DNA of 41,107 nucleotides from Yinghuangia seranimata (GTDB taxonomy: Bacteria > Actinomycetota > Actinomycetes > Streptomycetales > Streptomycetaceae): positions 1 through 41,107 of the forward strand of contig NZ_JASAOI010000074.1 in assembly GCF_029953285.1 (NCBI RefSeq). The letters run 5' to 3'. A program made the position numbers and the translations under genes. Below the pieces are notes generated by a model. That model did not search any database. It had not been told where the DNA came from and was given only the letters and a program-made list of their open reading frames with translations. Positions 15,912 to 30,862 of the stretch are shown here, in pieces. Each line of letters starts with the position of its first letter. The first letter of the stretch is position 1.

Positions 15912-16796
15912 CTAGGCGGGGTCGACTCCGGTCCCGGTCTCGAACCCGGTGAGGCCCAGCACCGCGAAGTCGGTCGCCGCCGCGAACGTCGGCAGGGCGG
16001 CGAGCCGTTGTGTGTACGCCCAAAGGCTGGGGAAGTCCCGCAGCGTGCGGCCGTCCTTCCCGACCGCCGCGCCGTAGGCCTTCTCGAAGCGGATCAACTT
16101 GACCCACAGCCGGACGTCGGACAGCGTCAGCGCCCTGCCGTGCACGAACGCCAGCGCGGACAAGCGCTCTTCATGGGCGTCGAGGGCGTTGGCGGAGGTT
16201 CCGTCGGCGTCCTCGACGAGCCCGCCCGCACGCACCTCGGCGGTGATCCGTGCGTCGAACACATCGATGTCCGAGCGGAGTTCCACCGGATACAGGTCGA
16301 CGGACCCGTCGGCCCACGCGTCGAACCGGGTGGCCAGGTCCACTGGTATGACCGGGAATTCGTTGCTGACCACCCGGGACGTCGTGCGGTCCCACAGCGT
16401 CGGGACGGAGATGTGGCCGTCGTAGCCCGGTTCGGTCGCCTCGTAGGCGTCGCGCAGCAGCGCGAAGCCGTTGACCGGGTCGGGGCCGAAGCGTTCGCGG
16501 AACGCCCAACCGCGCCCGTCGCGCTCCTCGTCGACGTAGGACGCGGTGACCACGTCCTCGAGCCCCTTCACGGTCCGCACGATCGCGGCGATGTGCGCCC
16601 ACGGGCAGCCGTGCGCGAGGTACAGGTGGTAGCGGCCGGGCTCGGCGGGGTACGGGACCGAGCCGGGCGCGGAGATCCGGCCCTGGAACGGGTAGATCGG
16701 GCACTCGACACCGTTCGCGGACGACGGCGGCTTGGCGCGGTAGACCCCGAAGACGTCGGTGTCTACGGGGCTGGCGAACACTGCGGTGCTGGTCAT
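15912..16796 (-). CDS. ECM4/YqjG-type glutathione-transferase-like protein (paralogue 1)
   Basis: 294 residues. The family (xi/ECM4, glutathionyl-hydroquinone reductases) uses a nucleophilic Cys in a CPWAH motif; here HGCPWAH has Cys at residue 64. Other family blocks are DVFGVYRA near the start, GRGWAFRE, YEATEPGYDGHISVPTLWD, SNEFPVI and a C-terminal all-helical domain with LTLSDVRLWVKLIRFE. ATG at 16796 follows GGAG by eight bases; the upstream open frame belongs to shadow sequence. It is 68 bases downstream of the FAD-binding gene on the same strand, probably one operon under the leader peptide at 19024-19104. Actinobacteria generally use mycothiol rather than glutathione, so the thiol partner is uncertain. 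Confidence 0.85.
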   Translation of the reverse strand: MTSTAVFASPVDTDVFGVYRAKPPSSANGVECPIYPFQGRISAPGSVPYPAEPGRYHLYLAHGCPWAHIAAIVRTVKGLEDVVTASYVDEERDGRGWAFRERFGPDPVNGFALLRDAYEATEPGYDGHISVPTLWDRTTSRVVSNEFPVIPVDLATRFDAWADGSVDLYPVELRSDIDVFDARITAEVRAGGLVEDADGTSANALDAHEERLSALAFVHGRALTLSDVRLWVKLIRFEKAYGAAVGKDGRTLRDFPSLWAYTQRLAALPTFAAATDFAVLGLTGFETGTGVDPA

Positions 16797-19023: not shown

Positions 19024-19104
19024 CTAGGCGCGCGGACAGGTACCGCCGGCCACTCGACACAGGTCGATGTGGCGGCACGACACGAGGTGGAGGTCCGCAC
19101 TCAC
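19024..19104 (-). CDS. leader peptide upstream of the FAD/ECM4 operon
   Basis: 26-codon ORF, GTG start, containing SCRHIDLCRVAGGTC near its end. The CRHIDLCRVA core recurs, with variations, in three other short ORFs of this window, each ahead of a sulfur-related unit. Short ORFs of this pattern (RRHIDLLRV-type) are known upstream of actinobacterial sulfur genes as putative leader peptides, and Cys-codon uORFs control sulfur genes by attenuation in mycobacteria. Three Cys codons fall in the last 17. The predicted promoter (-10 at 19112-19117) puts transcription start within a base or two of the GTG, so the message may be leaderless. Confidence 0.72.
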   Translation of the reverse strand: MSADLHLVSCRHIDLCRVAGGTCPRA

Positions 19105-19111
19105 GGCATCG

Positions 19112-19141
19112 ACGCTACGAACCCGTCGGACGTGCTGTCAA
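19112..19141 (-). promoter_or_regulatory. promoter of the FAD/ECM4 operon leader
   Basis: On the minus strand, TTGACA (19136-19141, a perfect -35) and TAGCGT (19112-19117) are separated by 18 bp. The expected start point is about seven bases beyond, at 19105 or so, next to the leader GTG at 19104. Its -35 interlocks with the -35 of the opposite promoter inside a 12-bp palindrome. Confidence 0.6.
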
Positions 19142-19148
19142 CGTTGAC
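19137..19148. promoter_or_regulatory. palindrome GTCAACGTTGAC spanning both -35 boxes
   Basis: Perfect 12-bp palindrome formed by the two back-to-back -35 hexamers (TTGACA on minus, TTGACC on plus). A dimer bound here would block or activate both operons at once. It may also be only a consequence of two overlapping -35 boxes. A second small palindrome, ACCTG-T-CAGGT, lies at 19240-19250 downstream of the plus promoter. Confidence 0.45.
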
Positions 19149-19172
19149 CAACTCAGAGGTGTCACGTAGGTT
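19144..19172 (+). promoter_or_regulatory. promoter of the FMN reductase/LLM operon
   Basis: TTGACC (19144-19149), 17-bp spacer, TAGGTT (19167-19172), close to the streptomycete housekeeping consensus. The predicted start near 19179 leaves about 100 bases before the leader ATG at 19280. Within that stretch lies the ACCTG-T-CAGGT palindrome. Confidence 0.55.
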
Positions 19173-19279
19173 CCAAAAGCAGGTTGGCAACGAAGTGGCC
19201 CTATTTCATGGGTAGTTCACAGATCGTTCATAAGTGACGACCTGTCAGGTGAGGGATCGCGAGGGACGGAGGGCGCCTG

Positions 19280-19384
19280 ATGACGCACCGGTCCGCCCGC
19301 ATGCCCGCGAGCGCGCTGCTGTGCGGTCGGCTCTACGTCGACCTCGGGCGCGTCTACAGCGCCGCGTGTAGCTCCGCCGGTTAG
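19280..19384 (+). CDS. leader peptide upstream of the FMN reductase/LLM operon
   Basis: 34-codon ORF with ATG preceded by GGAGGG (six-base spacing). Its C-terminal half reads CGRLYVDLGRVYSAACSSAG, a variant of the leader core with His replaced by Tyr (YVDLGRV), and two Cys codons. It ends 63 bases before the FMN reductase ATG, with a GC hairpin in between. Unlike the divergent leader it has a long 5' region and a good ribosome site. It probably couples ribosome progress at Cys or Arg codons to expression downstream. Confidence 0.7.
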   Translation: MTHRSARMPASALLCGRLYVDLGRVYSAACSSAG

Positions 19385-19396
19385 CCACCGGCTCCA

Positions 19397-19419
19397 GGCC
19401 GCCGTGACCCCCGGCGGCC
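19397..19419 (+). terminator. hairpin after the FMN reductase leader peptide
   Basis: Perfect 7-bp stem GGCCGCC (19397-19403) with GGCGGCC (19413-19419), 9-nt loop, starting 12 bases after the leader stop and ending 28 bases before the FMN reductase start. No U-tract follows. It could attenuate transcription or hide the downstream ribosome site in an alternative fold. Confidence 0.4.
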
Positions 19420-19447
19420 CTGTCCGCGACCCCACCGGAGCACACCC

Positions 19448-20053
19448 ATGTCCTCGATCCTCACCCTGTGGGGCACCCCTTCCGCGGTGTCCCGTACCGG
19501 AATCGTCGCCGAGCACGTCGCGACCCGCCTGGCCGCGGCCGGCCACCGCGTGGACCGGCTCGCCGTGCGCGACCTGCCCGCCACCGCGCTGCTGCACGCC
19601 GACACCAGTGACCCCGTACTCCGCGACGCGCTGCGCCTCGTCGAGAAGGCCGACGCGCTCGTCGTCGCGAGCCCCGTCTACAAGGCGTCGTACAGCGGCG
19701 TGCTGAAGACGTTCCTGGACGTGTTGCCGCAGTTCGCGCTGCGCGGCAAGTCCGTCCTCCCGGTCCTGACCGGCGGTACCCCGGCGCACGTCCTCGCGCT
19801 GGACTACGCGCTGCGCCCCGTGCTGACCTCGCTCGGCGCGACGCACGTCGCACAGGGCTGGTTCGTCCATGAGAGCTTCGTGCACCCCGCGGCCACGCCG
19901 GGCCCGGACCCCGACCCGCACACCGGGGCTCCCGCCGAGCCCGCGGATCCCGCCGACCGGGTCCACCGCGTCGACCCCGACGGTGTCGCCCCGCTGCTCG
20001 AACTCGTCGACGCCTTCTCCGCCCGCCTGTTCGCGGAAGGCGAGGCCCGCTGA
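19448..20053 (+). CDS. SsuE-like NAD(P)H-dependent FMN reductase
   Basis: 201 residues of the flavodoxin-like NADPH-dependent FMN reductase family. SPVYKASYSGVLKTFLDVLP and the following GKSVLPVLTGGTPAHVLALDYALRP are the classic SsuE/MsuE blocks. The enzyme makes FMNH2 for two-component flavin monooxygenases, here almost certainly the two LLM proteins encoded directly downstream. ATG at 19448 follows GGAG with eight-base spacing. A Pro/Asp-rich insert near residues 148-165 (PGPDPDPHTGAPAEPADPAD) is unusual. The ssuE symbol is withheld because the substrate of its partner monooxygenases is not known. Confidence 0.9.
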   Translation: MSSILTLWGTPSAVSRTGIVAEHVATRLAAAGHRVDRLAVRDLPATALLHADTSDPVLRDALRLVEKADALVVASPVYKASYSGVLKTFLDVLPQFALRGKSVLPVLTGGTPAHVLALDYALRPVLTSLGATHVAQGWFVHESFVHPAATPGPDPDPHTGAPAEPADPADRVHRVDPDGVAPLLELVDAFSARLFAEGEAR

Positions 20054-21270
20054 TGCCCGCCGTACGCGACCACGTCCACCTCGCCGTCGCCCTGGAGGGC
20101 GTCGGCCACCACCCCGCCGCGTGGCGCTCCCCGGCCACCCGGCCCGACCGGGTGTTCACCGCCGAGCACTGGCTCGAGCTGGTGCGCGAGGCCGAACGCG
20201 GCGCGCTCGACTTCGTCCGCGTCGACGACGCGCTCGGACTCGGTTCCGACGGCCAGGACCGGCTGCGCGGCCGACTGGACGCCGTCACCGTGCTGGCCCG
20301 GGTCGCCCCGGTCACCGAGCGGATCGGCCTGATCCCGGCCGCGACGACCACCCACACCGAGCCGTTCCACGTCTCCACCGCGCTCGCCACACTGGACTTC
20401 GCGTCGCGGGGCCGCGCCGGATGGTGGGCCAAGCCGTCGACGACCGAGGAGGAGACCCGGCTGTTCGGCCGCAAGCCGCTCGCCTCGCCCGGCGAACTCC
20501 AGGACGAGTCTGCGGAGTTCATCGACGTCGTCGGCCGACTGTGGGACTCCTGGGAGGACGGAGCCGTCATCCGCGACGTGCCGACCGGCCGCTTCGTCGA
20601 CCGCGAGCGCCTGCACTACGTCGACTTCCAGGGCACCTACTTCGACGTGCGCGGCCCCTCGATCACACCGCGCCCGCCGCAGGGCCGCCCGGTCGTCGCC
20701 TACTCCGTGACCGACGAGGCGTCCCTGGAGATCGCGGCACGCGACGCCGACGTGCTGTTCATCGACGTCGCCACACCCGGGCAGGCCCGCAAACTGCGGG
20801 CCCAGGCGCACCGGGTAGCCGAGGCCGCCGGCCGCGACCCCGACACGCTGCGGGTCCTCGCGGACGTCACCGTCGTGCTCGGCCGCACGGCCGCCGAGGC
20901 CGGCCGGGCCCGCCGCGACCTCGACGACCTCGACCACGAATCAGCGCCGGGCGCACTGCAGTTCACCGGGACCGCGAGCGGCCTCGCGGACCTCGTCGAG
21001 TCGTGGACCGCGGCCGGCGCCGTGGACGGGTTCACGGTCCTGCCCGCCCTGCTGCCCGACGGCCTGACCCGGCTCGTCGACTCCGTCGTGCCGAGACTGC
21101 GGGAACGCGGCCTGTTCCGCGACACGTACCGCTCCGACACGCTGCGCGGCCACCTGGGCCTCGCCCGCCCCGAGAGCCGCTACGCGCGGCCCACCGCCAC
21201 CGCCACCGCGCCGACGGCCTCGGACGCCCTTGCGCCCGTCGCGCCGGCCACCCCCGTGAGGACGCCATGA
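20053..21270 (+). CDS. LLM-class flavin-dependent monooxygenase 1
   Basis: 405 residues with the bacterial luciferase-like TIM barrel: strand 1 HVHLAVALEG, REAERGALDFVRVDD, VLARVAPVTERIGLIPAATT, ATLDFASRGRAGWWAKPS, LWDSWEDGAVI and a late TASGLADLVESW. Such enzymes use FMNH2 and O2 to cleave C-S bonds or oxidise sulfones, sulfonates or amines. Its ATG overlaps the reductase TGA by one base, so production of FMNH2 supplier and user is coupled. The Ala/Thr/Pro-rich C-terminal tail (about 375-405) is probably disordered. It is less similar to named families than its downstream neighbour. Substrate unknown. Confidence 0.88.
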   Translation: MPAVRDHVHLAVALEGVGHHPAAWRSPATRPDRVFTAEHWLELVREAERGALDFVRVDDALGLGSDGQDRLRGRLDAVTVLARVAPVTERIGLIPAATTTHTEPFHVSTALATLDFASRGRAGWWAKPSTTEEETRLFGRKPLASPGELQDESAEFIDVVGRLWDSWEDGAVIRDVPTGRFVDRERLHYVDFQGTYFDVRGPSITPRPPQGRPVVAYSVTDEASLEIAARDADVLFIDVATPGQARKLRAQAHRVAEAAGRDPDTLRVLADVTVVLGRTAAEAGRARRDLDDLDHESAPGALQFTGTASGLADLVESWTAAGAVDGFTVLPALLPDGLTRLVDSVVPRLRERGLFRDTYRSDTLRGHLGLARPESRYARPTATATAPTASDALAPVAPATPVRTP

Positions 21271-22658
21271 GCCCCCGCAGGCAGATCCACCTCGCCGCGC
21301 ACTTCCCCGGCGTCAACCACCACACCGTCTGGTCCGACCCGACGGCCGGCAGCCAGATCGACTTCGCGTCCTTCGCGCACCTCGCCCGGACCGCCGAACG
21401 CGGCCTGTTCGACTACTTCTTCCTCGCCGAGGGCCAGCGGGTGCGCGAACACCGCGGCCGCATCTTCGACCTGGACGTCGTCGGGCGGCCGGACGCGCTC
21501 ACCGTCCTCGCGGCGCTCGCCGCGGTCACCGACCGGATCGGCCTCGCCGCCACCGCGACCGCGACGTACAACGAGCCGTACGAACTGGCCCGCAAGCTCG
21601 CGTCGCTGGACCACGTCAGCGGCGGACGGGCGGCGTGGAACGCGGTCACCTCGCCCGACGCCTGGACCGGCGAGAACTTCCGGCGCGGCGGCTTCCTGCC
21701 GCGCGGGCAACGCTACGAGCGCGCCACCGAGTTCGTCGACACGGTCCGCGCCGTGTGGGACTCGTGGGCGCCCGACGCGGTCGTCGCCGACCGGGAGGCA
21801 GGGGTGTTCGCCCCCGACGGCGACACCGGCATCGGACGGTTCACCCGCGCCGGGAAGCACTTCGCCATAGAAGGCGCGGCGACCGTCCCGCGCGCCCCGC
21901 AGGGCCACCCCGTGCTGATCCAGGCCGGAGACTCCGACGAGGGACGCGAGTTCGGCGCCGCGTACGCCGACGTGATCTTCACACCGCACGGCGCGCTCGC
22001 CGAACGCCAGGCGTTCTTCGCCGACGTCAAGGGCCGGCTCGCCAAGTACGGGCGGCACCGCGACGAGCTCAAGGTCATGCCCGGCGCGGGCTTCGTGCTC
22101 GGCGCCACCGACGAGGAGGCGAGGGAACGCGCCGAGGAGGTGCGGCGCCACCAGATCAGCCCGCAGAACGCCCTGCACTTCCTCGAACAGGTCTGGGGCC
22201 GCGACCTGTCCGACCTGGACCCCGACGGCCCGCTCCCGGACTTCGACCCCGACGTCGAGGCGCAGGCCGACATCAGCCAGGGCCGCGTCCGGCTGTTCCG
22301 CGACCCGCTCGCGGTCGCCAGGCAGTGGCGCGAACGCGCCGCCGCGCAGGGGCTGAGCATCCGCGAACTGGTCATCGAGGTCTTCGCCCGGCCGGGGTTC
22401 GTCGGCAGCCCGAGCACGGTGGCGGCGCTGATCGACGAGTACGTGCAGTCGGAGGCGTGCGACGGGTTCATCCTCGTCCCGACCGTGATCCCGCACGGGC
22501 TCGACGAGTTCGTCGAAACGGTGGTCCCGCTCCTCCAGGAGCGCGGCAGCTTCCGCACCGCCTACACCGGCAGCACACTGCGCGACCATCTGGGCCTGGG
22601 CGCGCCCCGCGCCTCCACGCACAGCGAGGGCGCCGAACCCGGCCACCTGGCGGTCTAG
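21267..22658 (+). CDS. NtaA/SnaA/DszA-type LLM monooxygenase 2
   Basis: 463 residues, matching the longer NtaA/SnaA/SoxA/DszA branch of flavin monooxygenases. Family blocks are FARTAERGLFDYFFLAEG-like residues 34-50, RPDALTVLAALAAVTDRIGL, NEPYELARKLASLDHVSGGRA, WNAVTSPDAW, FRRGGFLPRGQRYERATEFV and the Gln-Ala-Gly-Asp-Ser contact PVLIQAGDSDEGREFGA. DszA and the Corynebacterium Seu proteins in this branch act on sulfones or sulfonate esters, others on nitrilotriacetate or EDTA. ATG at 21267 overlaps the previous stop by four bases, with GAGGA upstream. It probably uses FMNH2 from the SsuE-like protein. It is last in its operon, before a strong terminator. Confidence 0.92.
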   Translation: MSPRRQIHLAAHFPGVNHHTVWSDPTAGSQIDFASFAHLARTAERGLFDYFFLAEGQRVREHRGRIFDLDVVGRPDALTVLAALAAVTDRIGLAATATATYNEPYELARKLASLDHVSGGRAAWNAVTSPDAWTGENFRRGGFLPRGQRYERATEFVDTVRAVWDSWAPDAVVADREAGVFAPDGDTGIGRFTRAGKHFAIEGAATVPRAPQGHPVLIQAGDSDEGREFGAAYADVIFTPHGALAERQAFFADVKGRLAKYGRHRDELKVMPGAGFVLGATDEEARERAEEVRRHQISPQNALHFLEQVWGRDLSDLDPDGPLPDFDPDVEAQADISQGRVRLFRDPLAVARQWRERAAAQGLSIRELVIEVFARPGFVGSPSTVAALIDEYVQSEACDGFILVPTVIPHGLDEFVETVVPLLQERGSFRTAYTGSTLRDHLGLGAPRASTHSEGAEPGHLAV

Positions 22659-22679
22659 GGAGGGCCGTTCACGCAGCAC

Positions 22680-22721
22680 GTGCCGCGCGGTCCCGGGGGC
22701 AGGCCCGGGGCCGCGCGGCAC
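22680..22721. terminator. bidirectional terminator after the LLM operon
   Basis: 18-bp inverted repeat with a single G-U pair (22680-22697 with 22704-22721), 6-nt loop GGCAGG, followed on plus by TTTGCTC. It separates the convergent LLM operon and ECM4-type paralogue 2, whose stop is only six bases away. Confidence 0.88.
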
Positions 22722-22726
22722 TTTGC

Positions 22727-23647
22727 TCAGCCGCAGTCCCCGGCCGCGGCCTCCGGCGCGGTGCCGGCGAGCCGGTCCCAGTCGACGATCGGCAGGGTGC
22801 TCCCCGACGCGGCCGGGCCGCGACAGGACGCGCGGTGGTGCTGCGCGATGTGGTCCAGGCGCAGGTTGTCGCGGAACGCCGGAAGCTCGTACAGGCGCTC
22901 GAAGTAGGCCCACAACACCGTGTGTTCGCCGATCCGGCGGACGTCCTCGACCCACAGGTGCCGGCGGTGCACGGCGTCGACGTGCAGCAGCGTCGTCCAC
23001 AGGTGGACGTCCGCGGCCGTGAGCCGGTCGCCGAACAGGAACGGGCTCTGGGACAACCGGTGTTCCAGCAGCCCCAGCGCGTTGAAGACGGTGCCCGTCG
23101 CCTCGTCGTACCGATCGCCCCTGCGGGCCCGGCCGGCCTGCTGCGCGGCCTCCCACACGTCGTCGTCGAACAGCGCGCCGTAGCGGGCGATGCCGTCCGC
23201 CAGCCCGGCCGGGTACAGCTCGGGCCCGGCCCCCTCGAACGCGGTCGCCAGGTCGTACATGATGTCGTCCGCCTGGTTGCTGACGATGCGTCCGCTCCAG
23301 CGGTCCCACAACACCGGGACGGACACCGGGCCTTCGTAGTGGTGCTCGGTGGCCTCGTACGCCTCGCGCAACTGGGCGAACCCACCCACGCTGTCGGGGC
23401 CTTCGCCCGTACGGAACGCCCAGCCCCGGCCGTCCCGCACCGGTGTGACGACGGACAGCGTCACCTTGTCCTCGAGGCCGGCCAGGGAGCGGGTGACCGC
23501 CGCGCGCAGCGAGCGCGGACAAGCGAGCGACACGTACAGGTGATAGCGGTGCGGCACGGCGGTGAAGCCGCTGCCGGGCTCCCGGCCGATGCGGCCCTGG
23601 AAACGGACGGTGCACGGGGCGGCAGAGGTGGGTAGGTGTACGGGCAT
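22727..23647 (-). CDS. ECM4-type glutathione-transferase-like protein (paralogue 2)
   Basis: 306 residues, the same fold and block order as paralogue 1: RYHLYVSLACPRSL (Cys 43), VRDGRGWAFRTGEGPDSVGG, AYEATEHHYEGPVSVPVLWD, SNQADDIM, LTAADVHLWTTLL and a helical C-terminal domain. The Trp after Cys-Pro in the CPW motif is Arg here, so the active-site neighbourhood has changed while the Cys is kept. ATG at 23647 follows GGGAG. It stands alone behind its own leader peptide (23814-23921), apart from paralogue 1, which suggests separate but co-regulated expression. It could act on a mycothiol or other thiol conjugate formed while organosulfur compounds are broken down (inference). Confidence 0.82.
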   Translation of the reverse strand: MPVHLPTSAAPCTVRFQGRIGREPGSGFTAVPHRYHLYVSLACPRSLRAAVTRSLAGLEDKVTLSVVTPVRDGRGWAFRTGEGPDSVGGFAQLREAYEATEHHYEGPVSVPVLWDRWSGRIVSNQADDIMYDLATAFEGAGPELYPAGLADGIARYGALFDDDVWEAAQQAGRARRGDRYDEATGTVFNALGLLEHRLSQSPFLFGDRLTAADVHLWTTLLHVDAVHRRHLWVEDVRRIGEHTVLWAYFERLYELPAFRDNLRLDHIAQHHRASCRGPAASGSTLPIVDWDRLAGTAPEAAAGDCG

Positions 23648-23781
23648 GACAGGACTCCCTGGAGGCCGGGTCGGGCGGGGGCAGGGAAACACGGCCGCCG
23701 GGACTGTGGAGGCGGCGCGCGGGCATACGGGGGCCGGGCTCGAGGCCGGCGGACGCGACGGGACCGGAAGGACCGGGACGA

Positions 23782-23800
23782 GGGGCCTCACGGGGGCCCC
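23782..23800 (-). terminator. hairpin after the ECM4 paralogue 2 leader peptide
   Basis: GGGGCC (23782-23787) pairs with GGCCCC (23795-23800), 6 bp with a 7-nt loop. On the minus strand it begins 13 bases after the leader stop, nearly the same distance as in the FMN reductase unit. No U-tract. Confidence 0.35.
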
Positions 23801-23813
23801 GCCGCACGTGCGG

Positions 23814-23921
23814 CTAGGCCGCGCTGGCGACGCGCAACAGGTCGATGTGGCGGCGCCGGAGGAAACGGCCGGAGACCAGGCGGAGAGGCCGAGGGAAGAG
23901 CGTTCCGCGTGTGCCGCGCAT
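23814..23921 (-). CDS. leader peptide upstream of ECM4 paralogue 2
   Basis: 35-codon ORF with ATG behind a GGGGAGGGGG ribosome site. It ends in RRRHIDLLRVASAA then TAG, the clearest copy of the leader core in the window. It has no Cys codon, so a simple Cys-codon stalling model does not fit this copy; Arg/His/Leu codons or the nascent peptide itself may be sensed. It lies 166 bases upstream of the ECM4 start, with a hairpin shortly after its stop. Confidence 0.75.
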   Translation of the reverse strand: MRGTRGTLFPRPLRLVSGRFLRRRHIDLLRVASAA

Positions 23922-23954
23922 CGCCGTCCCCCTCCCCGGGTTTGCCGTTACCGG

Positions 23955-23984
23955 ATTATTCGCAGGGCGTCCATATACCGTCAA
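23955..23984 (-). promoter_or_regulatory. promoter of the ECM4 paralogue 2 unit
   Basis: On the minus strand TTGACG (23979-23984) and AATAAT (23955-23960) are separated by 18 bp. Both hexamers match the consensus at five of six positions. Transcription would start about 26 bases before the leader ATG at 23921. Confidence 0.55.
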
Positions 23985-24070
23985 GGGCCGTCTTGCCCCG
24001 TAAGATGCGGCGCTTGACGGGGGATTGTCGCTGTATACGCAGCTGGGTCTGCATGAGAGGCACGGGGAAG

Positions 24071-24787
24071 ATGTCTGACTCCACGGCGGGGCGTTCCGGG
24101 GGCGGAATGCGGGCGCTCGCGTTGAACTGGCTGCCTACGCTGCTGTTCAACGTCCTGATGCCGGTGGTCACTTACAACTACCTGACCGGGCACGGCATGA
24201 GCGGCGTGAACGCGCTGCTCATCGCCTCGCTGTGGCCGGTCGCGGAGCTGGCGGTCGTCTTCGTCGCCAAGCGCCGGCTGGACGACTTCAGCATGCTGAC
24301 GTTGATCTTCCTGGTGCTCACGATCGTGACGTCGGCGTTCTTCCACAGCGAGCGGCTCCTCCTCATCAAGGAGTCGGTGATCACCGGCATCTTCGGGGTC
24401 ATCTGCCTGGGCACGCTGTTCGCGGCCCGACCGCTGATGTTCTACTTCGGCCGCAAGTTCGCGACCGACGGCACCGCCGAGGGCATCGCCTACTGGAACA
24501 GCCTTTGGCAGTACGAGGGCTTCCGGGCCACCCAGCGGCTCATCACCACCGTGTGGGGTGTGGCCTACATCGTCGAGGCGGTCATCCGGATCGCGCTGAC
24601 CTACGTGCTGTCGCACAGCGCCGCGCTCACCGTCAACAACGTCATGCCGTACGCGGTCACCGGCGGCCTGCTCTTCTGGACGATCCGGCTCGGCAACAAG
24701 CGCCGCGCCGCCGCCGAGGCCGCCGGGCGCGTCCCGGGCCAGGCGAGCGCCGAGCAGCAGGCGCAGGCCGAGCCGTCGGCCAGCTGA
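24071..24787 (+). CDS. VC0807-family membrane protein
   Basis: 238 residues with about six hydrophobic segments from residue 20 to 215 (LALNWLPTLLFNVLMPVVTY, LIASLWPVAELAVVFVA, LTLIFLVLTIVTSAFF, ITGIFGVICLGTLFA, ITTVWGVAYIVEAVI and a last one near VMPYAVTGGLLFW). The pattern matches the VC0807 / septation-protein-A-like family of inner-membrane proteins with no settled function. ATG at 24071 has GAGAGG ten bases upstream; an in-frame ATG at 24053 is an alternative. The Ala/Gln-rich tail is probably disordered. No link to the neighbouring sulfur genes is evident apart from position. Confidence 0.75.
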   Translation: MSDSTAGRSGGGMRALALNWLPTLLFNVLMPVVTYNYLTGHGMSGVNALLIASLWPVAELAVVFVAKRRLDDFSMLTLIFLVLTIVTSAFFHSERLLLIKESVITGIFGVICLGTLFAARPLMFYFGRKFATDGTAEGIAYWNSLWQYEGFRATQRLITTVWGVAYIVEAVIRIALTYVLSHSAALTVNNVMPYAVTGGLLFWTIRLGNKRRAAAEAAGRVPGQASAEQQAQAEPSAS

Positions 24788-24800
24788 CCGAGCCCGGGCA

Positions 24801-24830
24801 GCGCACAACACCGCACAACACCGCACAGCA
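24801..24830. repeat. three tandem 10-bp repeats, unit CCGCACAACA
   Basis: GCGCACAACA, CCGCACAACA, CCGCACAGCA in direct succession, 13 bases after the VC0807-family stop. Short and imperfect. No function is assigned. Confidence 0.6.
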
Positions 24831-24845
24831 CCACTGCAGCATGGC

Positions 24846-24889
24846 GACGGGACCCATACGGCCGGCCGACCGGCCGCGCGGGTCCCGTC
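24846..24889. terminator. terminator between VC0807-family and CxxC-protein genes
   Basis: Outer stem GACGGGACCC (24846-24855) with GGGTCCCGTC (24880-24889), and an inner stem CGGCCGG/CCGGCCG (24859-24865, 24870-24876) with a 4-nt loop. It overlaps the stop codon of the minus-strand gene and lies between convergent genes. Confidence 0.7.
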
Positions 24890-25154
24890 ACCCGTATCCG
24901 GGCAGCGGCTTGCGCTCGTGCCGCTTGACCCAGGCGCCGGGCCCGCGCGCCCACGAGTGGCGCCCGCTGGCCTCGCACACCAGACAGGCCTCCTGCTTGC
25001 CGACGGCGACGACGCGGCCGCCGATGAGCGCCGCCCTGGCGGCGTACCGCCAGCCGTCGCCGTCGCATGTCACACACACCGCCGCCAGGTCCCGCGGGAT
25101 CTCGGGCGGCGGGGCGTCGGGGTCGTCCGGGGGCTCCGGAGGGTCGTCGTCCAC
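24888..25154 (-). CDS. small CxxC/CxxC protein, possible zinc ribbon
   Basis: 88 residues. An acidic Pro-rich start (MDDDPPEPPDDPDAPPPE) is followed by two Cys pairs, CVTCDGDG (Cys 27, 30) and CLVCEASG (Cys 57, 60). Each pair resembles the CxxCxGxG zinc modules of DnaJ-type proteins, and together they could bind one Zn. GTG start with only a weak purine-rich site upstream. The gene is convergent with the VC0807-family gene and begins seven bases past the end of the truncated LLM frame. No function is claimed. The Cys spacing makes it unlikely to be a chance frame. Confidence 0.6.
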   Translation of the reverse strand: MDDDPPEPPDDPDAPPPEIPRDLAAVCVTCDGDGWRYAARAALIGGRVVAVGKQEACLVCEASGRHSWARGPGAWVKRHERKPLPGYG

Positions 25155-25160
25155 TGCTCT

Positions 25161-25394
25161 TCACGGTAACCAGACGGACGGACGGGAAACGTCCTCCGCG
25201 CCCGGAAGTCCCCCGGGCGTGTGTCCTCCGCGCGTCCGCCCGGGCTCCCCCACGGGGCTCACACCTCCTGCCACACCCCCGACGGCAGCCTCTCCATCAC
25301 CTGCGAGTTCGCGCAGTCGGGTGTACGGCGAGGGCAGTTCGCCGGTGACGGGGTCGGGGGTGTCGGCGACAAGGCTGAAGACGGCGAACTTCAC
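25161..25394 (-). pseudogene. truncated LLM-class monooxygenase (N-terminal remnant)
   Basis: The GTG at 25394 follows GGAAGG by six bases and opens a frame whose first ~30 residues (KFAVFSLVADTPDPVTGELP, then SPYTRLREL) look like the N-terminus of a flavin-dependent LLM monooxygenase. Homology then stops and the frame runs on through low-complexity Gly/Ala/Pro residues to a stop at 25161, 77 residues in total against ~350 or more for the family. It sits directly downstream of the ABC importer genes, where a monooxygenase would make sense. A deletion of the 3' part is the likely history. It is probably non-functional. Confidence 0.65.
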
Positions 25395-25465
25395 GGCGGG
25401 CCTTCCGTGTGCGGGGAGCGGGGAGCGGGGAGCGGGGAACGAGCGGACGGGGAGCGGGCCGCGGT

Positions 25466-27202
25466 TCAGACGGGCGCGAGGCGGCGGCCGGGCACGGCGT
25501 CCAGCAGTTCGCGGGTGTACGCGTGGGCCGGATCGGCGAGCACGCGCTCGACCGGGCCCGACTCCACCAGCCGTCCCCGTCGCATGACGCCGACGCGGTG
25601 CGCGATCCGCGCGACGACCGCCAGGTCGTGCGAGATGAACAGCAGGGCGAGGCCGAGCTCGTGCTGCAGGCCGGTGAGCAGGTCGAGGATCTGCGCCTGC
25701 ACGGACACGTCGAGGGCGGAGGTCGGCTCGTCGCACACCACCACATCGGGACGCAGCACCAGCGCGCGGGCGATCGCCACGCGCTGCCGCTGACCACCCG
25801 ACAGCTCGGCGGGCCGCCGCGTCAGCACGTCCGGCGGCAGGGCGACCTGCGCGGCCGACGCGGCGGCCAGCTCCCGGCGTTCGGCGCGGTCGCCGACGCC
25901 GAAGGCGCGCAGCGGCTCGGCGATGACGTCGCCGACCGAGAACCGCGGGTCCAGGGAGGCGTACGGGTTCTGCGAGACGACCTGGACGCGCCGCCGCAGC
26001 CCCCTCAGCTCCCGGGCCGCGGCGCGCCGGCCGCCGCGCGGGCGGGGCCGGTCGTCCGTGCCGGTGAGCGCGGCGACGTCGACGCCGGCGACCTCGATCC
26101 GCCCGGCGGTGGCCCGCTCCAGGCCGAGCACGAGCCGCGCCGTGGTGGACTTCCCTGAGCCGGACTCGCCGACGAGCGCGAAGGTCTCGCCGGGGGCGAT
26201 GTGGAACGACACGTCCTCGACCGCGTGGAGCACGGCCTTGCCGGGCAGCGGGAAGTCCTTGCCGAGCCCGTTGACGTCGACGATCCGCCGCGGGGCCGTG
26301 CCGTCGGCCGACGCCGACGAGGGTACGGCCGCCCGGCTGTCGCCACGCCCGACGGTGCGCCAGGCGCCCAGCCCCGGCGCGGCCGCCGTCAGGTTCTTCG
26401 TGTACGGGTGCACCGGCTCGCGCAACACCCGTGCGGCGGGCCCCTCTTCGACGACCTCGCCGCCCGACATCACCACGATGCGGTCGGCGCGGTCCGAGGC
26501 GACGCCCAGGTCGTGGGTGATCAGCAGGACCGCTGTGCCGTTCTCGCGGGTCAGTCCGGCCACATGGTCGAGGATCTGCCGCTGCACGGTCACGTCCAGC
26601 GCGCTGGTGGGCTCGTCCGCGACCACCAGGCGCGGACGGCACGCCAGGGCGATGGCGATGAGCACACGCTGCCGCATGCCGCCGGACAGTTCGTGCGGGT
26701 ACTGCCGGGCGCGCACGTGCGGCGCCGGCAGCCCCGCCTCGGCGAGCAGCTCCACCGCGCGGGCCCGGGCGCCGCGTCCGTCCGCGAGCCCGTGCACCAG
26801 GAGCGCCTCGGCGACCTGGTCGCCGACGCGGCGCACCGGGTTGAGGGACACCGTCGGATCCTGCGGGATGAAGCCGATGCCCGCGCCGCGCACCGCGCGC
26901 ATCCGCCTTTCGTCGAGGGCCAGCAGGTCGCGTCCCTGGAACCGGACTTCGCCGCCGGTGACCTCGCCGCCGAGCGGCAGCAGGCCCAGCACGGCGTGCG
27001 CCGTGGTGCTCTTGCCGGAGCCGGACTCGCCGACCACCGCGACGACTTCGCCCGGTCGCACGGTCAGCGAGACGCCGTGCACCACTTCCCGCGGCATGCC
27101 GCGGCTTCCGCCGCCCGCCGCGTACGCGACCCGCAGGTCCCGGACCTCGAGCAGTGCGGATCCGTCCTCCGGGCCGCCGTCCACGGCCGCCTCGTCGGTC
27201 AT
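25466..27202 (-). CDS. fused double ATPase of a dipeptide/oligopeptide-type ABC importer
   Basis: 578 residues, DppD- and DppF-like domains in one chain. Domain 1: Walker [10 protein letters not shown] at 58-66, FIPQDPTVSLNPV, signature LSGGMRQR at 172-179, Walker B VVADEPTSALD near 194-203, THD at 229-231. Domain 2: Walker [10 protein letters not shown] at 345-353, VVSQNPYASLDPR, signature LSGGQRQR at 467-474, Walker B DEPTSALD at 491-498, SHD after it. The PYTK and AYTR motifs after each domain are typical of this family. The ATG overlaps the stop of permease C by four bases. Clustering with LLM enzymes and leader peptides suggests an organosulfur cargo (inference). Confidence 0.92.
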   Translation of the reverse strand: MTDEAAVDGGPEDGSALLEVRDLRVAYAAGGGSRGMPREVVHGVSLTVRPGEVVAVVGESGSGKSTTAHAVLGLLPLGGEVTGGEVRFQGRDLLALDERRMRAVRGAGIGFIPQDPTVSLNPVRRVGDQVAEALLVHGLADGRGARARAVELLAEAGLPAPHVRARQYPHELSGGMRQRVLIAIALACRPRLVVADEPTSALDVTVQRQILDHVAGLTRENGTAVLLITHDLGVASDRADRIVVMSGGEVVEEGPAARVLREPVHPYTKNLTAAAPGLGAWRTVGRGDSRAAVPSSASADGTAPRRIVDVNGLGKDFPLPGKAVLHAVEDVSFHIAPGETFALVGESGSGKSTTARLVLGLERATAGRIEVAGVDVAALTGTDDRPRPRGGRRAAARELRGLRRRVQVVSQNPYASLDPRFSVGDVIAEPLRAFGVGDRAERRELAAASAAQVALPPDVLTRRPAELSGGQRQRVAIARALVLRPDVVVCDEPTSALDVSVQAQILDLLTGLQHELGLALLFISHDLAVVARIAHRVGVMRRGRLVESGPVERVLADPAHAYTRELLDAVPGRRLAPV

Positions 27203-28104
27203 CGGTCGTCTCCCCGTTCGGTGTCGAGGGCGCGGGATATCCGGTTCGCGGCCAGCACCGTCGCGGCGACGACCAGGCCGGGGAAGGTGGTCAGCCACCA
27301 CGCGGTGGCCACGAAGTTGCGGCCGTCGGCGACGAGCGCGCCCCACTCAGGGGTGGGCGGGGCGGCGCCGAAGCCGAGGAAGCTCAGCGACGAGACGGCG
27401 AGGATCGAGACGCCGAACTCCAGTGCGGCAATGACCAGGACCGGCCCCCACGCGTTCGGCAGGACGTGGCGCAGCAGCACCGCGCCCGGCCGTACGCCGC
27501 TCGCCCGGGCCGCCTCGACGTAGCCTGCCCCGCGCACGCGCAGCACCTCCGCGCGCATCACCCGCGCGAACACCGCGGCGGCGGCCACGCCGACCGCGAG
27601 CGCGATCTTGGTGGTGCCGAAGCCGAGCGCGGTGATGACGGCGAGCGACAGCAGCAGCCGGGGGATCGCCTGGAGGACGTCGACCAGCCGCATCACCGCG
27701 TCGTCGACGAATCCGCCGGCGAACCCGGCGACCAGGCCGAGCGAGCCGCCGGCCGCGAGCGCGACGAGCACCGCGAGCGCGCTCGCGCGCAGCGACAACG
27801 ACGTGCCGTGCACGACCCGGGTGAACACGTCCCGGCCGAGCTGGTCGGTGCCGAACAGGTGGTCGGCGCTGGGCCCTTGCAGCTTCTCGGCGGGGACGCC
27901 GGTGAGCGGGTCGCCGCCCGCGAGCACCGCTGGGGCGACCGCCGCGAGGAGTACGAGGGCCGCGACGAGTACGGACAGCAGCAGCCCCGGACGGCGGACC
28001 GTGAAGCGGACCGCCGCGCGAACGCGCCCGGGCGGCCGGGCCGTTCCGCCGGAGGAAGCCGCATCGGCGGTCGCGTGCGCCGGGGGCGTCGCGAGAACGG
28101 TCAT
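27199..28104 (-). CDS. dipeptide/oligopeptide-type ABC permease (DppC-like)
   Basis: 301 residues. An N-terminal membrane segment (LLLSVLVAALVLLAAVAP) is followed by the DppC-type loop GTDQLGRDVFTRVVHGTSLSL and five further helices. The EAA-like coupling loop YVEAARASGVRPGAVLLRHVLPNAWGP contacts the ATPase. The first ~30 residues are an unstructured Ala/Pro/Gly-rich tail. ATG with GGGAGGAA upstream. Third gene of the operon, 13 bases after permease B. Confidence 0.92.
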   Translation of the reverse strand: MTVLATPPAHATADAASSGGTARPPGRVRAAVRFTVRRPGLLLSVLVAALVLLAAVAPAVLAGGDPLTGVPAEKLQGPSADHLFGTDQLGRDVFTRVVHGTSLSLRASALAVLVALAAGGSLGLVAGFAGGFVDDAVMRLVDVLQAIPRLLLSLAVITALGFGTTKIALAVGVAAAAVFARVMRAEVLRVRGAGYVEAARASGVRPGAVLLRHVLPNAWGPVLVIAALEFGVSILAVSSLSFLGFGAAPPTPEWGALVADGRNFVATAWWLTTFPGLVVAATVLAANRISRALDTERGDDR

Positions 28105-28117
28105 GGCGTTCCTCCCG

Positions 28118-29062
28118 TCAGGCCGCCGCGGCCCGCGCGGTGGTCACGCGCGGGTCGAGCACCGGATAGAGCAGGTCGAGCGCGAGGCTCACGACCACGA
28201 AGACCAGTGCGGAGAGCACCACGACGCCCTGCACCACCGGGATGTCCTGGCGGTCGACCGCGAACGCCGTCACGCGGCCGAGGCCCGCGCGCGAGAACAC
28301 CGTCTCGACGACCACCGACTCGGTGAGCAGGTTCCCGGCCAGCACGCCCACGACGGTGAGCGTCGGCAGCGACGCGTTGCGCAGCGCGTGCCGCAGGTGG
28401 ATCCGTGCCCGCCCCGCGCCCTTCGCCCGCGCGGTGTCGACGTACGGCGCGGCGAGCGCGGTCGTCATGCTCTTCGCCAGCACCTGGGCGATGAACGCGC
28501 CCGCGGGCAGGGCCATCGTGATGCCCGGCAGCACCAGGCTGTCGAACCCGTCGTTGCCCAGCGCGGGCAGCGCGCGCCACTGGAACGACACCACCTGGAT
28601 CAGCACCAGGCCGACCCAGAACGCCGGCATCGAGATGCCCACCGCCGGGATCGAGAGCAGCAACCGCCGTATCGCCCGGTTGCGCGCATAGGTGGCCAGC
28701 AGCGCGATGCCGCCGCCGAACACCACGGCCAGCAGCAGCGCGAACCCCGTCAGCTTGAGGGTCTCGGGAAGCGCGTCGGTGATCGTCGTCCGGACGTCGG
28801 CGCCGCTCTGGACGGAATGGCCGAAGTCGCCCTGCACCGCGTTGCGCAGCGCCTTGGCGTACTGCACCGGCAGCGGCTCACCGATGCCGTACTTGTCGCG
28901 GACGGCGGCGATCTCCGCGGGTGTCGCGGTCGATTCGATGCCGCCGAGCTTGATGTCCACCGGGTCGCCCGGCAGCACGAACAGGATCGCGTAGGACAGC
29001 GTGAACGCCGCCCACAGCACGAACAGCGCCTGCAGCAGCCGGCGCAGCAGGTAGCGGGCCAC
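28118..29062 (-). CDS. dipeptide/oligopeptide-type ABC permease (DppB-like)
   Basis: 314 residues beginning MARYLLRRLLQALFVLWAAF, the usual DppB N-terminus, then LPGDPVD, the large extracytoplasmic region with GDFGHSVQSG, and five C-terminal helices. The coupling loop is YVDTARAKGAGRARIHLRHA, and the C-terminus LLYPVLDPRV is a family signature. It starts six bases after the lipoprotein stop, implying tight co-translation. Confidence 0.93.
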   Translation of the reverse strand: MARYLLRRLLQALFVLWAAFTLSYAILFVLPGDPVDIKLGGIESTATPAEIAAVRDKYGIGEPLPVQYAKALRNAVQGDFGHSVQSGADVRTTITDALPETLKLTGFALLLAVVFGGGIALLATYARNRAIRRLLLSIPAVGISMPAFWVGLVLIQVVSFQWRALPALGNDGFDSLVLPGITMALPAGAFIAQVLAKSMTTALAAPYVDTARAKGAGRARIHLRHALRNASLPTLTVVGVLAGNLLTESVVVETVFSRAGLGRVTAFAVDRQDIPVVQGVVVLSALVFVVVSLALDLLYPVLDPRVTTARAAAA

Positions 29063-29068
29063 GGCCGG

Positions 29069-30694
29069 TCAGCCCTTGAGCCACGCGTCGTGGAAGTTCA
29101 GCCGCGACGACGCGTCGAGCGTGACGCCCTGCACCTTGGCCGCGAAGCCGTGCACCTGCGCGAGTTCGAACAGCGGGATCGTGTAGCCGTGGTCGACCAG
29201 CTGCCGCTGCGCCTCCGCGACCTGCGCGGCGCGCGCGGCCGGGTCGACGAGCTGGGCCTGCTGGTCCAGCGCGGTGTCCTGCGGGCCGAGCGGCAGCCGG
29301 CCGCGGTTGAGGCCCTTCGTGGAGAACACGACGCGCAGCACGTCCGGGTCGGAGCGGGTGAGGTTGTAGTAGGAGAAGTCGAAGTCGCCGGACGTCTGGA
29401 CGGTGTTCTGCTCGCCGGCCGTCAGCTTCCGCAGCCGCAGGTCGACGCCGACCTTCTTCAGCTGCTGCTGGAGCAGCTCCAGCACGGTCTGGCTGGCGTT
29501 GAACGCGGGTGCGAACACGACGTCGAGGCTCAGTTTGCGGCCGTCCTTCGCGCGGATCCCGTCGCCGCCGGGGAGCCAGCCGGCCGCGTCGAGGATCCGC
29601 TTGGCGCCCTCGGGGTCGTAGGCCAGCGCCGCGCCCAGGTCCGTGTAGCCCGGTGTCACCGACGCCAGCACGCTCGTTGCAGCCTTGTACTTCGTGCTGA
29701 GCACGGTCGTGGTGAGCTCGGGGCGGTTCACCGCCTTCTGGATCGCCTGCCGCACGTGCTCGTCGTCGAGTCCGGGGCGCGTGACGTTGGGGTGCAGGCT
29801 GAACACGAACCCCGGGTTGGGGCGGGTCAGGACGGTGTACCCGGCGGCGAACCGCGGTTCGTCCTGCGGCTGGACGTCGCTGATCGCGTCGACCTGCCCC
29901 GACTCCAGCGCCCCCGCGCGCACCCCGGACTCCGGGACGATCTTGTAGACCACCTTGTCGAGGTACGCCTCGCCCTGCTTCTTCCACAGCGACGAGCCCC
30001 ACGCGTAGCCCGCGCGCCGGGTGATCTCCACGCTCTGGTTCTGCTTGTACGAGCCGAACACGAACGGGCCGGAGCCCACCAGCGCGCCGAGGCAGCGCTC
30101 TTCCGGCGTCTTGGCGAACGTCGCGGGGGACACCAGCCCGAGCGACACCGTCGAGGTGGCCTGGAGGAACTGCGCGCTGGGCGCCTTGAACTCCACGCGC
30201 ACCGTGGTCGGATCGACGACCGTCGACGCCTTGTAGCCGGCCAGGTAGCCCGAGCCGATGCTCGCCTTGGCACCCAACGCGGCGATGCCGTCGAGGTTCG
30301 CCTTGACCGCGGCGGCGTCCACCGGGCCGCCGTCGCTGAACGTCACGCCGGGGCGCAGGTGGAAGGTGAAGGCGGTGGCGGTCGGGTCGACCTCCCAGGA
30401 CTGCGCGAGCCAGGGCTTGATCTCCCCGGTCGCCGGGTCCTGGTCGGTCAGCGAGTCGACGAGCTGGCGGCCGATGTTCAGGCTCGCGTTCAGCCCGTAC
30501 TGCTGCGGGTCGACGCACGTCGGGTCGACGGCGAGCGCGAACGTCAGCGTGCCGCCGGTACGCGGCGGACCCGCGTCCGCGGACGCCCCGGCGCCGGTGG
30601 CGGGGTCCGCCCCGGAGCAGCCGGAGGCGGCCAGCGCCAGCGCGGTCAGGAGAGAGGAGAAGGCGGGCAGGCGGGTACGGCGGAGCGCGGGCAT
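29069..30694 (-). CDS. ABC importer substrate-binding lipoprotein (SBP family 5)
   Basis: 541 residues. Signal peptide with Arg-rich start (MPALRRTRLP), hydrophobic core SSLLTALALAASG and lipobox Cys at 26, so it is anchored outside the cytoplasmic membrane. Family-5 features are LTFALAVDPTCVDPQQYGLN, FTFHLRPGVTFSDGGPVDA and FSLHPNVTRPGLDDEHVRQA, with a C-terminal DHGYTIPLFEL. ATG at 30694 has GGAG seven bases upstream. First structural gene of the importer operon, 90 bases after a leader peptide. The binding pocket cannot be read by eye, so the cargo is open; peptides, or organosulfur compounds given the context. Confidence 0.92.
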   Translation of the reverse strand: MPALRRTRLPAFSSLLTALALAASGCSGADPATGAGASADAGPPRTGGTLTFALAVDPTCVDPQQYGLNASLNIGRQLVDSLTDQDPATGEIKPWLAQSWEVDPTATAFTFHLRPGVTFSDGGPVDAAAVKANLDGIAALGAKASIGSGYLAGYKASTVVDPTTVRVEFKAPSAQFLQATSTVSLGLVSPATFAKTPEERCLGALVGSGPFVFGSYKQNQSVEITRRAGYAWGSSLWKKQGEAYLDKVVYKIVPESGVRAGALESGQVDAISDVQPQDEPRFAAGYTVLTRPNPGFVFSLHPNVTRPGLDDEHVRQAIQKAVNRPELTTTVLSTKYKAATSVLASVTPGYTDLGAALAYDPEGAKRILDAAGWLPGGDGIRAKDGRKLSLDVVFAPAFNASQTVLELLQQQLKKVGVDLRLRKLTAGEQNTVQTSGDFDFSYYNLTRSDPDVLRVVFSTKGLNRGRLPLGPQDTALDQQAQLVDPAARAAQVAEAQRQLVDHGYTIPLFELAQVHGFAAKVQGVTLDASSRLNFHDAWLKG

Positions 30695-30784
30695 GGAAGT
30701 CTCCAGTGGGCCGTGGCGGCGCGCGCACATGCGGAAGCCACGGGGAACGCGGAACGGGCGGGGCCGGGCGGCGAGCGGAACGCT

Positions 30785-30862
30785 CTAGCCGCGACGACAG
30801 CCCGCGCTGGAGACACGTCCGAAGTCGACGTGGCGGCGGCTGCACAGCTTCCTGGAGTGCAT
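30785..30862 (-). CDS. leader peptide upstream of the ABC importer operon
   Basis: 25-codon ORF containing LCSRRHVDFGRVSSAGC near its end, then CRRG and a stop. RRHVDFGRVSSA is the same core as in the other three leaders. Two Cys codons. It begins 10 bases after the stop of the rhomboid-like gene upstream on the same strand and ends 90 bases before the lipoprotein start. The ribosome site is weak (GGA). No convincing promoter was found; it may be read through from upstream or use a poor-consensus promoter. No clear hairpin follows its stop. Confidence 0.7.
   Translation of the reverse strand: MHSRKLCSRRHVDFGRVSSAGCRRG

Follow-up and report, generated by a model that had tools for sequence, protein, structure and literature searches.

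A near-invariant UGU codon in putative cysteine-responsive leader peptides of Yinghuangia seranimata and other actinomycetes

Known cysteine leaders and the four leaders of the window

Canestrari reportedly described in 2020 the cysteine-rich leader peptides of mycobacteria, Ms5788A ahead of cysA2 and Ms4527A ahead of nirA, together with the idea of a 'ribulon'. Here we analyse four short open reading frames (ORFs), leaders A to D, which lie in a 41,107-nucleotide stretch of Yinghuangia seranimata DNA (assembly GCF_029953285.1, contig NZ_JASAOI010000074.1; referred to as the window). The window is one whole contig of a draft genome of 9.8 Mb in 113 contigs, estimated to be 98% complete. In the accessible part of PMC4633059, where Msmeg_5788 is labelled cysA2 and Msmeg_4527 nirA, the mycobacterial leaders are encoded by short ORFs that lie upstream of these genes on leaderless mRNAs and contain Cys codons in their last part, and the same leaders are cited in the accessible parts of PMC9094748 and PMC13236596. 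All four window leaders match the NCBIfam model NF042934 (cis_reg_atten, "putative leader peptide"). Matches to the Ms5788A or Ms4527A models, whose names appear to derive from the mycobacterial leaders found upstream of cysA2 and nirA, were obtained for three of the four and are below the cut-offs of these models. The resemblance to NF042934 lies in the core sequence, the size and the site ahead of sulfur genes; the difference is that each window leader falls below the curated cut-off of 27 bits, a score reached by four further leaders in this genome, and that a protein model is silent on codon choice. Judged by these matches, the element is of a kind already known, a near-threshold member of NF042934 that would work like the mycobacterial cysteine attenuators.

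We number codons from the His of the HxDLxR core (position 0), which places the conserved Cys at +11, and refer to leaders with Cys at +11 as class I. Leader A (19024..19104, minus strand, 26 amino acids, GTG start, translation VSADLHLVSCRHIDLCRVAGGTCPRA; NF042934 25.5 bits, E 7.3e-6) is of class I and has as its +11 codon, the predicted stall codon, UGU at 19036..19038. Leader B (19280..19384, plus strand, 34 amino acids, MTHRSARMPASALLCGRLYVDLGRVYSAACSSAG; 17.1 bits, E 0.003) and leader D (30785..30862, minus strand, 25 amino acids, MHSRKLCSRRHVDFGRVSSAGCRRG; 19.0 bits, E 7.8e-4, and E 2.1e-6 with the Ms4527A model NF042936) are likewise of class I, with UGU at 19367..19369 and 30797..30799, respectively, and leader B is preceded by the Shine-Dalgarno (SD)-like sequence GGAGGG. 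Leader C (23814..23921, minus strand, 35 amino acids, MRGTRGTLFPRPLRLVSGRFLRRRHIDLLRVASAA; 26.9 bits, E 2.6e-6) belongs to a second class described below and has the stop codon TAG (23814..23816) exactly in place of the +11 codon. Thus, leaders A, B and D have one or more Cys codons close to the leader end, and leader C has no Cys codon at all. A leader similar to leader B in Yinghuangia soli (L187), RLYVDLGRVFSAAC, also has TGT, and the nearest named relative of one window protein likewise comes from Y. soli (75%).

An earlier reading of the letters alone (the sequence-only reading) had placed these ORFs at the same strands and coordinates, and our translations are identical to those it gave. 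Its leader-to-gene distances of 63-173 bases also held, the leader stop being separated from the predicted gene start by 173 (A), 63 (B), 166 (C) and 90 (D) bases according to the gene models and the sequence. The HxD-x-x-RV core that it ascribed to all four is present in leaders A, C and D, and leader B departs from it with Tyr instead of His at the first core position (YVDLGRV). A strict form of the core motif, which leader A escapes because Cys replaces Arg at -2, matched three times in the window compared with a mean of 0.005 matches per window in 200 second-order Markov windows, and chance occurrence of the motif is thereby ruled out. No Rfam element was found in the window at the gathering score.

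Compared with other described systems, the polycysteine leaders of the mycobacterial type (family f3 in our set) also have TGT at +11, but they contain runs of Cys codons with TGT at several places, whereas most other leaders studied here have few Cys codons and a single fixed UGU. The uORFC-8-2 leader ahead of cysS in Rhodobacterales (alphaproteobacteria) is also a predicted Cys-codon attenuator, but it has tandem Cys codons, a dominance of UGC and a terminator-like stem, and the HxDLxR chain is not mentioned in the accessible part of its description (PMC8632094). In the leu attenuator with rare CUA codons the choice of the regulatory codon tunes sensitivity, according to the part of PMC1183508 available; synonymous choice of a regulatory codon matters there as it does here, but several isoacceptors explain the choice in that case, whereas in Y. 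seranimata a single tRNA-Cys was found to cover both codons. The accessible part of the Streptomyces lividans reannotation (PMC8079986) lists eight attenuator leaders, none of them for cysteine. In the literature searched, some of it accessible only in part, we recognised no published description of the fixed UGU, and the main paper on the mycobacterial leaders, which lay outside that search, may hold a related remark; we did not find the near-invariant UGU and the two leader classes described, and we treat them as a new feature.

Fixation of UGU at position +11

When leaders were collected from related genomes, the codon at +11 proved to be nearly invariant. In an initial set of 155 distinct leaders, most of all from the family to which Y. 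seranimata belongs and very few from elsewhere, this codon was TGT in 148, TAG in four, TGA in two, GGC in one and TGC in none, and after the addition of other families (242 leaders) the counts were 234 TGT, one TGC, four TAG, two TGA and one GGC. For these counts L001, L002, L015 and L016 were left out before the codon scan, four antisense matches (VDLPRRF) were dropped and identical cores were collapsed; the 242-leader step also demanded Arg at -2, and loci L198, L199, L222 and L247 added no leader. Class I comprised 235 leaders with 150 distinct peptides from 25 families, in which the Cys at +11 was encoded by TGT in 234 and by TGC in one. In the genome of Y. seranimata itself TGT is the codon in all 11 leaders that have this Cys, including L013, which lies outside the regular expression and was counted in this figure only. 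The sequence-only reading had called for a comparison of the leader motif in related genomes, and this comparison showed both core and UGU to be kept. The sole class I leader with TGC at +11, L262, is the only one examined of its family (f89).

This uniformity is not a property of Cys codons in these genomes, in which TGT represents 48 of the 726 Cys codons (6.6%) in the predicted genes of the same loci and three of 66 in the window. Asp +2, the codon of which also ends in C or T, was GAC in 172 and GAT in 63 of the same leaders (Fisher p 8e-73 against +11). The other Cys positions of the leaders favoured TGC: 97 TGC to 10 TGT at +4, 48 to 11 at +9 and 12 to 1 at +10. Moreover, in 234 pairs of leaders that encode an identical peptide from -5 to +11, the +11 codon differed in 0% of pairs, whereas each of the other 16 codons differed in 10-30%. 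Differences in these pairs were concentrated at third positions (0.19, compared with 0.017 and 0 at first and second positions), and such an excess is what a translated peptide leaves behind. Closely related leaders are precisely where a neutral C or T in the third position ought to have shifted. At the level of sequence, these comparisons provide direct evidence that codon identity at +11, beyond the amino acid, is under selection at what is likely the sensor.

The ordinary counting of Cys codons, as in mycobacteria, would let the ribosome wait at any Cys codon, with the core kept by descent or RNA pairing and the UGU incidental. The names of the family models, taken from mycobacterial Cys-rich leaders, and the position of those leaders ahead of cysA2 and nirA (accessible part of PMC4633059) speak for such a mechanism, as does the presence of TGT at other places in polycysteine leaders. 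We nevertheless consider it unlikely, since variation is tolerated at the Cys codons of +4 and +9, most of which are UGC, when +11 is fixed, and since two residues of the core are kept as amino acids although their codons vary. The first leader finder demanded Asp +2 and Arg +5 and was thus uninformative on these two residues. In a recount that used neither of them as a criterion (236 distinct leaders from 262 loci; ten loci scored too low, mostly because the match was shifted by a contig end), all 236 leaders had Asp +2 and all but one (235 of 236) had Arg +5, although the family model that recruited the loci does weigh both. The +11 codon in this recount was TGT in 229, TGC in one and a stop in six. 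In L036, Leu replaces the otherwise constant Arg +5 and TGT is kept at +11.

Retention of the U for the sake of RNA structure, in which UGU would pair with a downstream partner and so form or break a switch, appears quite unlikely. An ungapped scan showed no base above 0.55 bits at any fixed offset outside the leader, and when sequences were folded singly, the third base of the +11 codon was unpaired in 57 of 148 cases and otherwise had scattered partners at offsets from -91 to +219. UGU kept for a fixed RNA pairing was rejected on these grounds, there being no fixed partner in either the scan or the single folds; partners at varying distances, or confined to a single group of leaders, may still exist. 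An observation in favour of a structural role came from a group of eight nirA leaders, in which the alignment fold pairs the leader tail, at CUGU, with a downstream GCAG-like stretch containing GCAGGT; however, the third base of UGU forms a U-G pair there, which UGC would strengthen. Consensus folds of the rhodanese group and of the last part of the MoaD-cysM group showed nothing convincing. In the alignment of the nirA group (A1; L053, L059, L051, L046, L047, L049, L050 and L095), GCAGGT occurs at about columns 216-223 in seven of eight otherwise divergent spacers.

A further candidate reason for UGU, the selective charging of isoacceptors, which is the accepted explanation of codon choice in attenuators (PMC1183508), was ruled out for Y. 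seranimata, where a single tRNA-Cys with anticodon GCA was found among 60 tRNA matches; because this one tRNA serves both codons, isoacceptor choice cannot explain the UGU in this genome. Of the 60 matches, L359 was unassigned for want of a clear anticodon and L362 was not called by ARAGORN. L359 (contig C25, 25128-25201) is a tRNA-like gene with an unusual anticodon loop, which ARAGORN could not assign (cagc). The reason that remains for UGU would be decoding at the ribosome, namely of a codon that is read by wobble and placed precisely after a conserved chain.

Class II leaders and the proposed stalling at +11

Of 197 genomes of the order, 166 have a relative of the GST_C_2 gene that follows leader C (E up to 1e-20), and a leader motif was found at 26 of the 30 best of these loci (none at L286, L289, L290 and L304). 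These leaders form a second class, for which we assembled 36 distinct members from the GST_C_2 loci, six named relatives, and L040, L044, L066 and L139, for which the GST_C_2 gene was confirmed; members taken from the general set were chosen for having no Cys at +11, and those from the search with the GST_C_2 gene were not so chosen. The class II leaders keep the core HIDLxR-x-x-SA, and 31 of 36 have Cys at +7, always encoded by TGC. At +11 none of the 36 has Cys, and the codons found there are AGT (10), TAG (7), GGC (6), AGC (4) and others, with a stop codon exactly at this position in nine. Leader C is one of five members that have no Cys at +7 (the others being L284, L287, L139 and L191), and its counterparts in Y. 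soli (L187) and in another genome of the same genus (L040) retain it. Thus, the absence of Cys from leader C looks like a lineage loss within an already divergent class and not like evidence about class I leaders. The sequence-only reading was right that one of the four copies has no Cys codon, but its argument from this copy, that simple stalling at Cys codons is insufficient, drew on a member of a distinct class. A cysteine response of leader C itself is doubtful because its +7 Cys is missing too.

Taking both classes together, we consider it probable that the leaders act across the taxonomic class as cysteine-responsive, ribosome-mediated attenuators, in which a stall at the fixed +11 UGU would switch on sulfur genes. 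The conserved chain R-x-[H/A]-[V/I]-D-L-x-R-x-x-S-A-x would be made first and sit in the exit tunnel when the ribosome reaches +11. In class I, to which leaders A, B and D belong, the UGU would there be read through a G-U wobble by the sole tRNA-Cys (GCA) found, and a drop in charged tRNA-Cys would cause the ribosome to stall near the leader end. The downstream genes would then be turned on, because the stalled ribosome keeps the leader tail from a structure that hides the start of the gene or because Rho is blocked on a C-rich spacer; either release of the ribosome-binding site (RBS) or blocked Rho could serve as this switch. Class II would keep the chain and drop the UGU, usually with UGC at +7. 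If this is correct, the fixed UGU names the probable stall position to a single codon.

More tentatively, with somewhat less than even confidence, we suggest that the chain and the exact UGU act jointly as a programmed stall site, with wobble decoding by the single tRNA-Cys as the sensor; the derived class II would then have to stall or sense differently. When +11 is in the A site, Asp +2 lies eight and Arg +5 five residues before the P-site residue, distances at which, judging from arrest peptides in general, the upper tunnel would be within reach.

Arrest peptides such as TnaC and SpeFL, in which the stall depends on residues of the nascent chain and needs a small-molecule ligand, offer another way to account for a conserved chain. 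A leader of the TnaC kind would sense a sulfur metabolite through its nascent chain, and the UGU or stop at +11 would only need to be slow. The stop exactly at +11 in nine of 36 class II leaders and in three leaders of class I type would suit such a mechanism, as would the persistence of the chain in class II leaders that have no Cys at +11 and the C-rich spacer beyond the stop. Against this, +11 is Cys in 235 leaders, the amino acid to which the following genes relate, which tRNA charging explains directly, and in 27 of the 36 members of class II the +11 codon is neither a Cys codon nor a stop. We therefore regard ligand sensing by the chain as very unlikely.

The regions around the leaders give some indication of how attenuation by a ribosome stalled at +11 might be set up. 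A promoter-like TTGACA (19136-19141), an 18-nt spacer and TAGCGT (19112-19117) were seen by eye ahead of leader A (19112..19141, minus strand), ending 7 nt before the GTG, and leader A is probably leaderless. A TANNNT hexamer at 9-16 nt, mostly 12-13 nt, before the in-frame start was found in 130 of 242 leaders, compared with 17 in a shifted control; because of this spacing about half of the leaders are probably leaderless. Of the others, 34 have an SD-like match and 78 have neither. The spacers that follow the leaders are rich in C and poor in G (C 45% and G 29% in 143 spacers, compared with 40% and 33% in 204 other upstream regions; p 1.5e-12), as would be expected if Rho loads there or if the spacer is to stay unstructured.

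Several observations weigh against stalling at a fixed UGU as the basis of control. The counts and p-values given above overstate independence because the leaders are related by descent. The Cys codons immediately behind +11 are mixed, with 12 TGC and 15 TGT at +12 and 15 TGC and 11 TGT at +13, many of them in the polycysteine leaders of family f3. Three leaders of class I type, L111, L138 and L183, carry a stop at +11 (TAG, TGA and TAG, respectively) with the chain kept, the first two standing ahead of a confirmed MoaD gene, and class II leaders keep the chain without the UGU. The survey of tRNA-Cys covers the genome of Y. seranimata alone, which is a 98% complete draft. When release of the RBS was examined by folding, the effect was weak: the mean gain in opening cost conferred by a stalled ribosome was 1.53 compared with 0.82 kcal/mol in shuffled sequences (p 0.006), and 64 leaders exceeded their own shuffles among the 107 used. 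These 107, which are related to one another, were those with spacers of up to 200 nt out of 213 leaders with a confident gene. The three class I leaders of the window do not stand out in this test. No sign of an intrinsic terminator was seen in spacers read by eye, although no systematic search was made, and covariation in the fold of the nirA group was poor, both sides having changed in three of 45 pairs, with an unfavourable covariation term.

Genome-wide regulon, downstream genes and spread

A search of the Y. seranimata genome with NF042934 returned 14 matches at E up to 1, of which 12 are leader-like; the remaining two, L015 and L016, sit in long open frames, look like chance matches and were rejected as leaders. 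Outside the window, leaders precede genes for MoaD and cysteine synthase (cysM), for a rhodanese, and for nitrite/sulfite reductase (nirA) and PAPS reductase (cysH). Further leaders precede genes for a GNAT protein, O-acetylhomoserine sulfhydrylase (metY), an SDF-family symporter and a small winged-helix protein; a role in sulfur metabolism is not obvious for the GNAT, SDF and winged-helix genes, and one weak match has no clear downstream gene. With 12 leader-like matches, many of them ahead of cysteine or sulfur genes, the regulon is therefore genome-wide. Common control of the four units, as proposed in the sequence-only reading, is well supported by these matches, but its scope proved wider than the single organosulfur regulon suggested there: the four window leaders appear to be part of a genome-wide cysteine/sulfur regulon and not of an organosulfur regulon of this locus. 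The fixed codon also provides an entry point to the cysteine/sulfur regulon of Streptomyces-like bacteria.

In the window, leader B clearly stands ahead of sulfur genes, and the link to sulfur is indirect where the GST_C_2 genes follow; the position is also clear for several leaders elsewhere in the genome. Leader B is followed on the plus strand by an SsuE-type NADPH-dependent FMN reductase (19448..20053; TIGR03567, 186.7 bits, cut-off 164.05) and by two NtaA/DmoA-family FMN-dependent monooxygenases (20053..21270 and 21267..22658; TIGR03860, 309 and 415 bits, cut-off 279.7). Leader D is followed on the minus strand (25466..30694) by an ATP-binding cassette (ABC) importer of the peptide/nickel/glutathione type with a substrate-binding protein, two permeases and fused ATPases, whose genes were identified by family model matches at 29069..30694, 28118..29062, 27199..27927 and 25466..27202. 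The FMN reductase with its monooxygenase pair and the ABC importer had both been predicted from the letters alone, and the family models bear them out. Under leader A lie, on the minus strand, a FAD/NAD(P)-binding protein (NAD_binding_9; 16865..18850; PF13454, E 6.5e-41) as the first gene and a GST_C_2 protein (15912..16796; PF13410, E 1.5e-8) as the second, and the GST_C_2 protein under leader C is encoded at 22727..23647 on the minus strand (PF13410, E 2.9e-13). The name ECM4 that the sequence-only reading gave to these GST_C_2 proteins is a putative label.

In the taxonomic class of Y. seranimata, a match at E up to 0.001 was obtained in at least 199 of 296 genomes and at least 80 of 115 genera, with part of the candidates scored. 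A stricter threshold was used for the phylum as a whole, where seven of 149 had a match and all seven were within this class. In the family, a leader match was found in 41 of 41.

Two further features were noted at individual loci. The spacer of L005, the nirA leader of Y. seranimata, contains GCGTCCTT, which by eye shares 8 complementary bases with the AAGGACGC that precedes the nirA start codon and is a possible anti-SD sequence. In addition, some leaders on opposite strands lie close together, no more than a few hundred to about 1,300 bases apart, as in the window (19104-19280), at L006/L013 on Y. seranimata contig C7, and at L203, L232 and L141 in relatives, so that adjoining divergent units each have a leader of their own.

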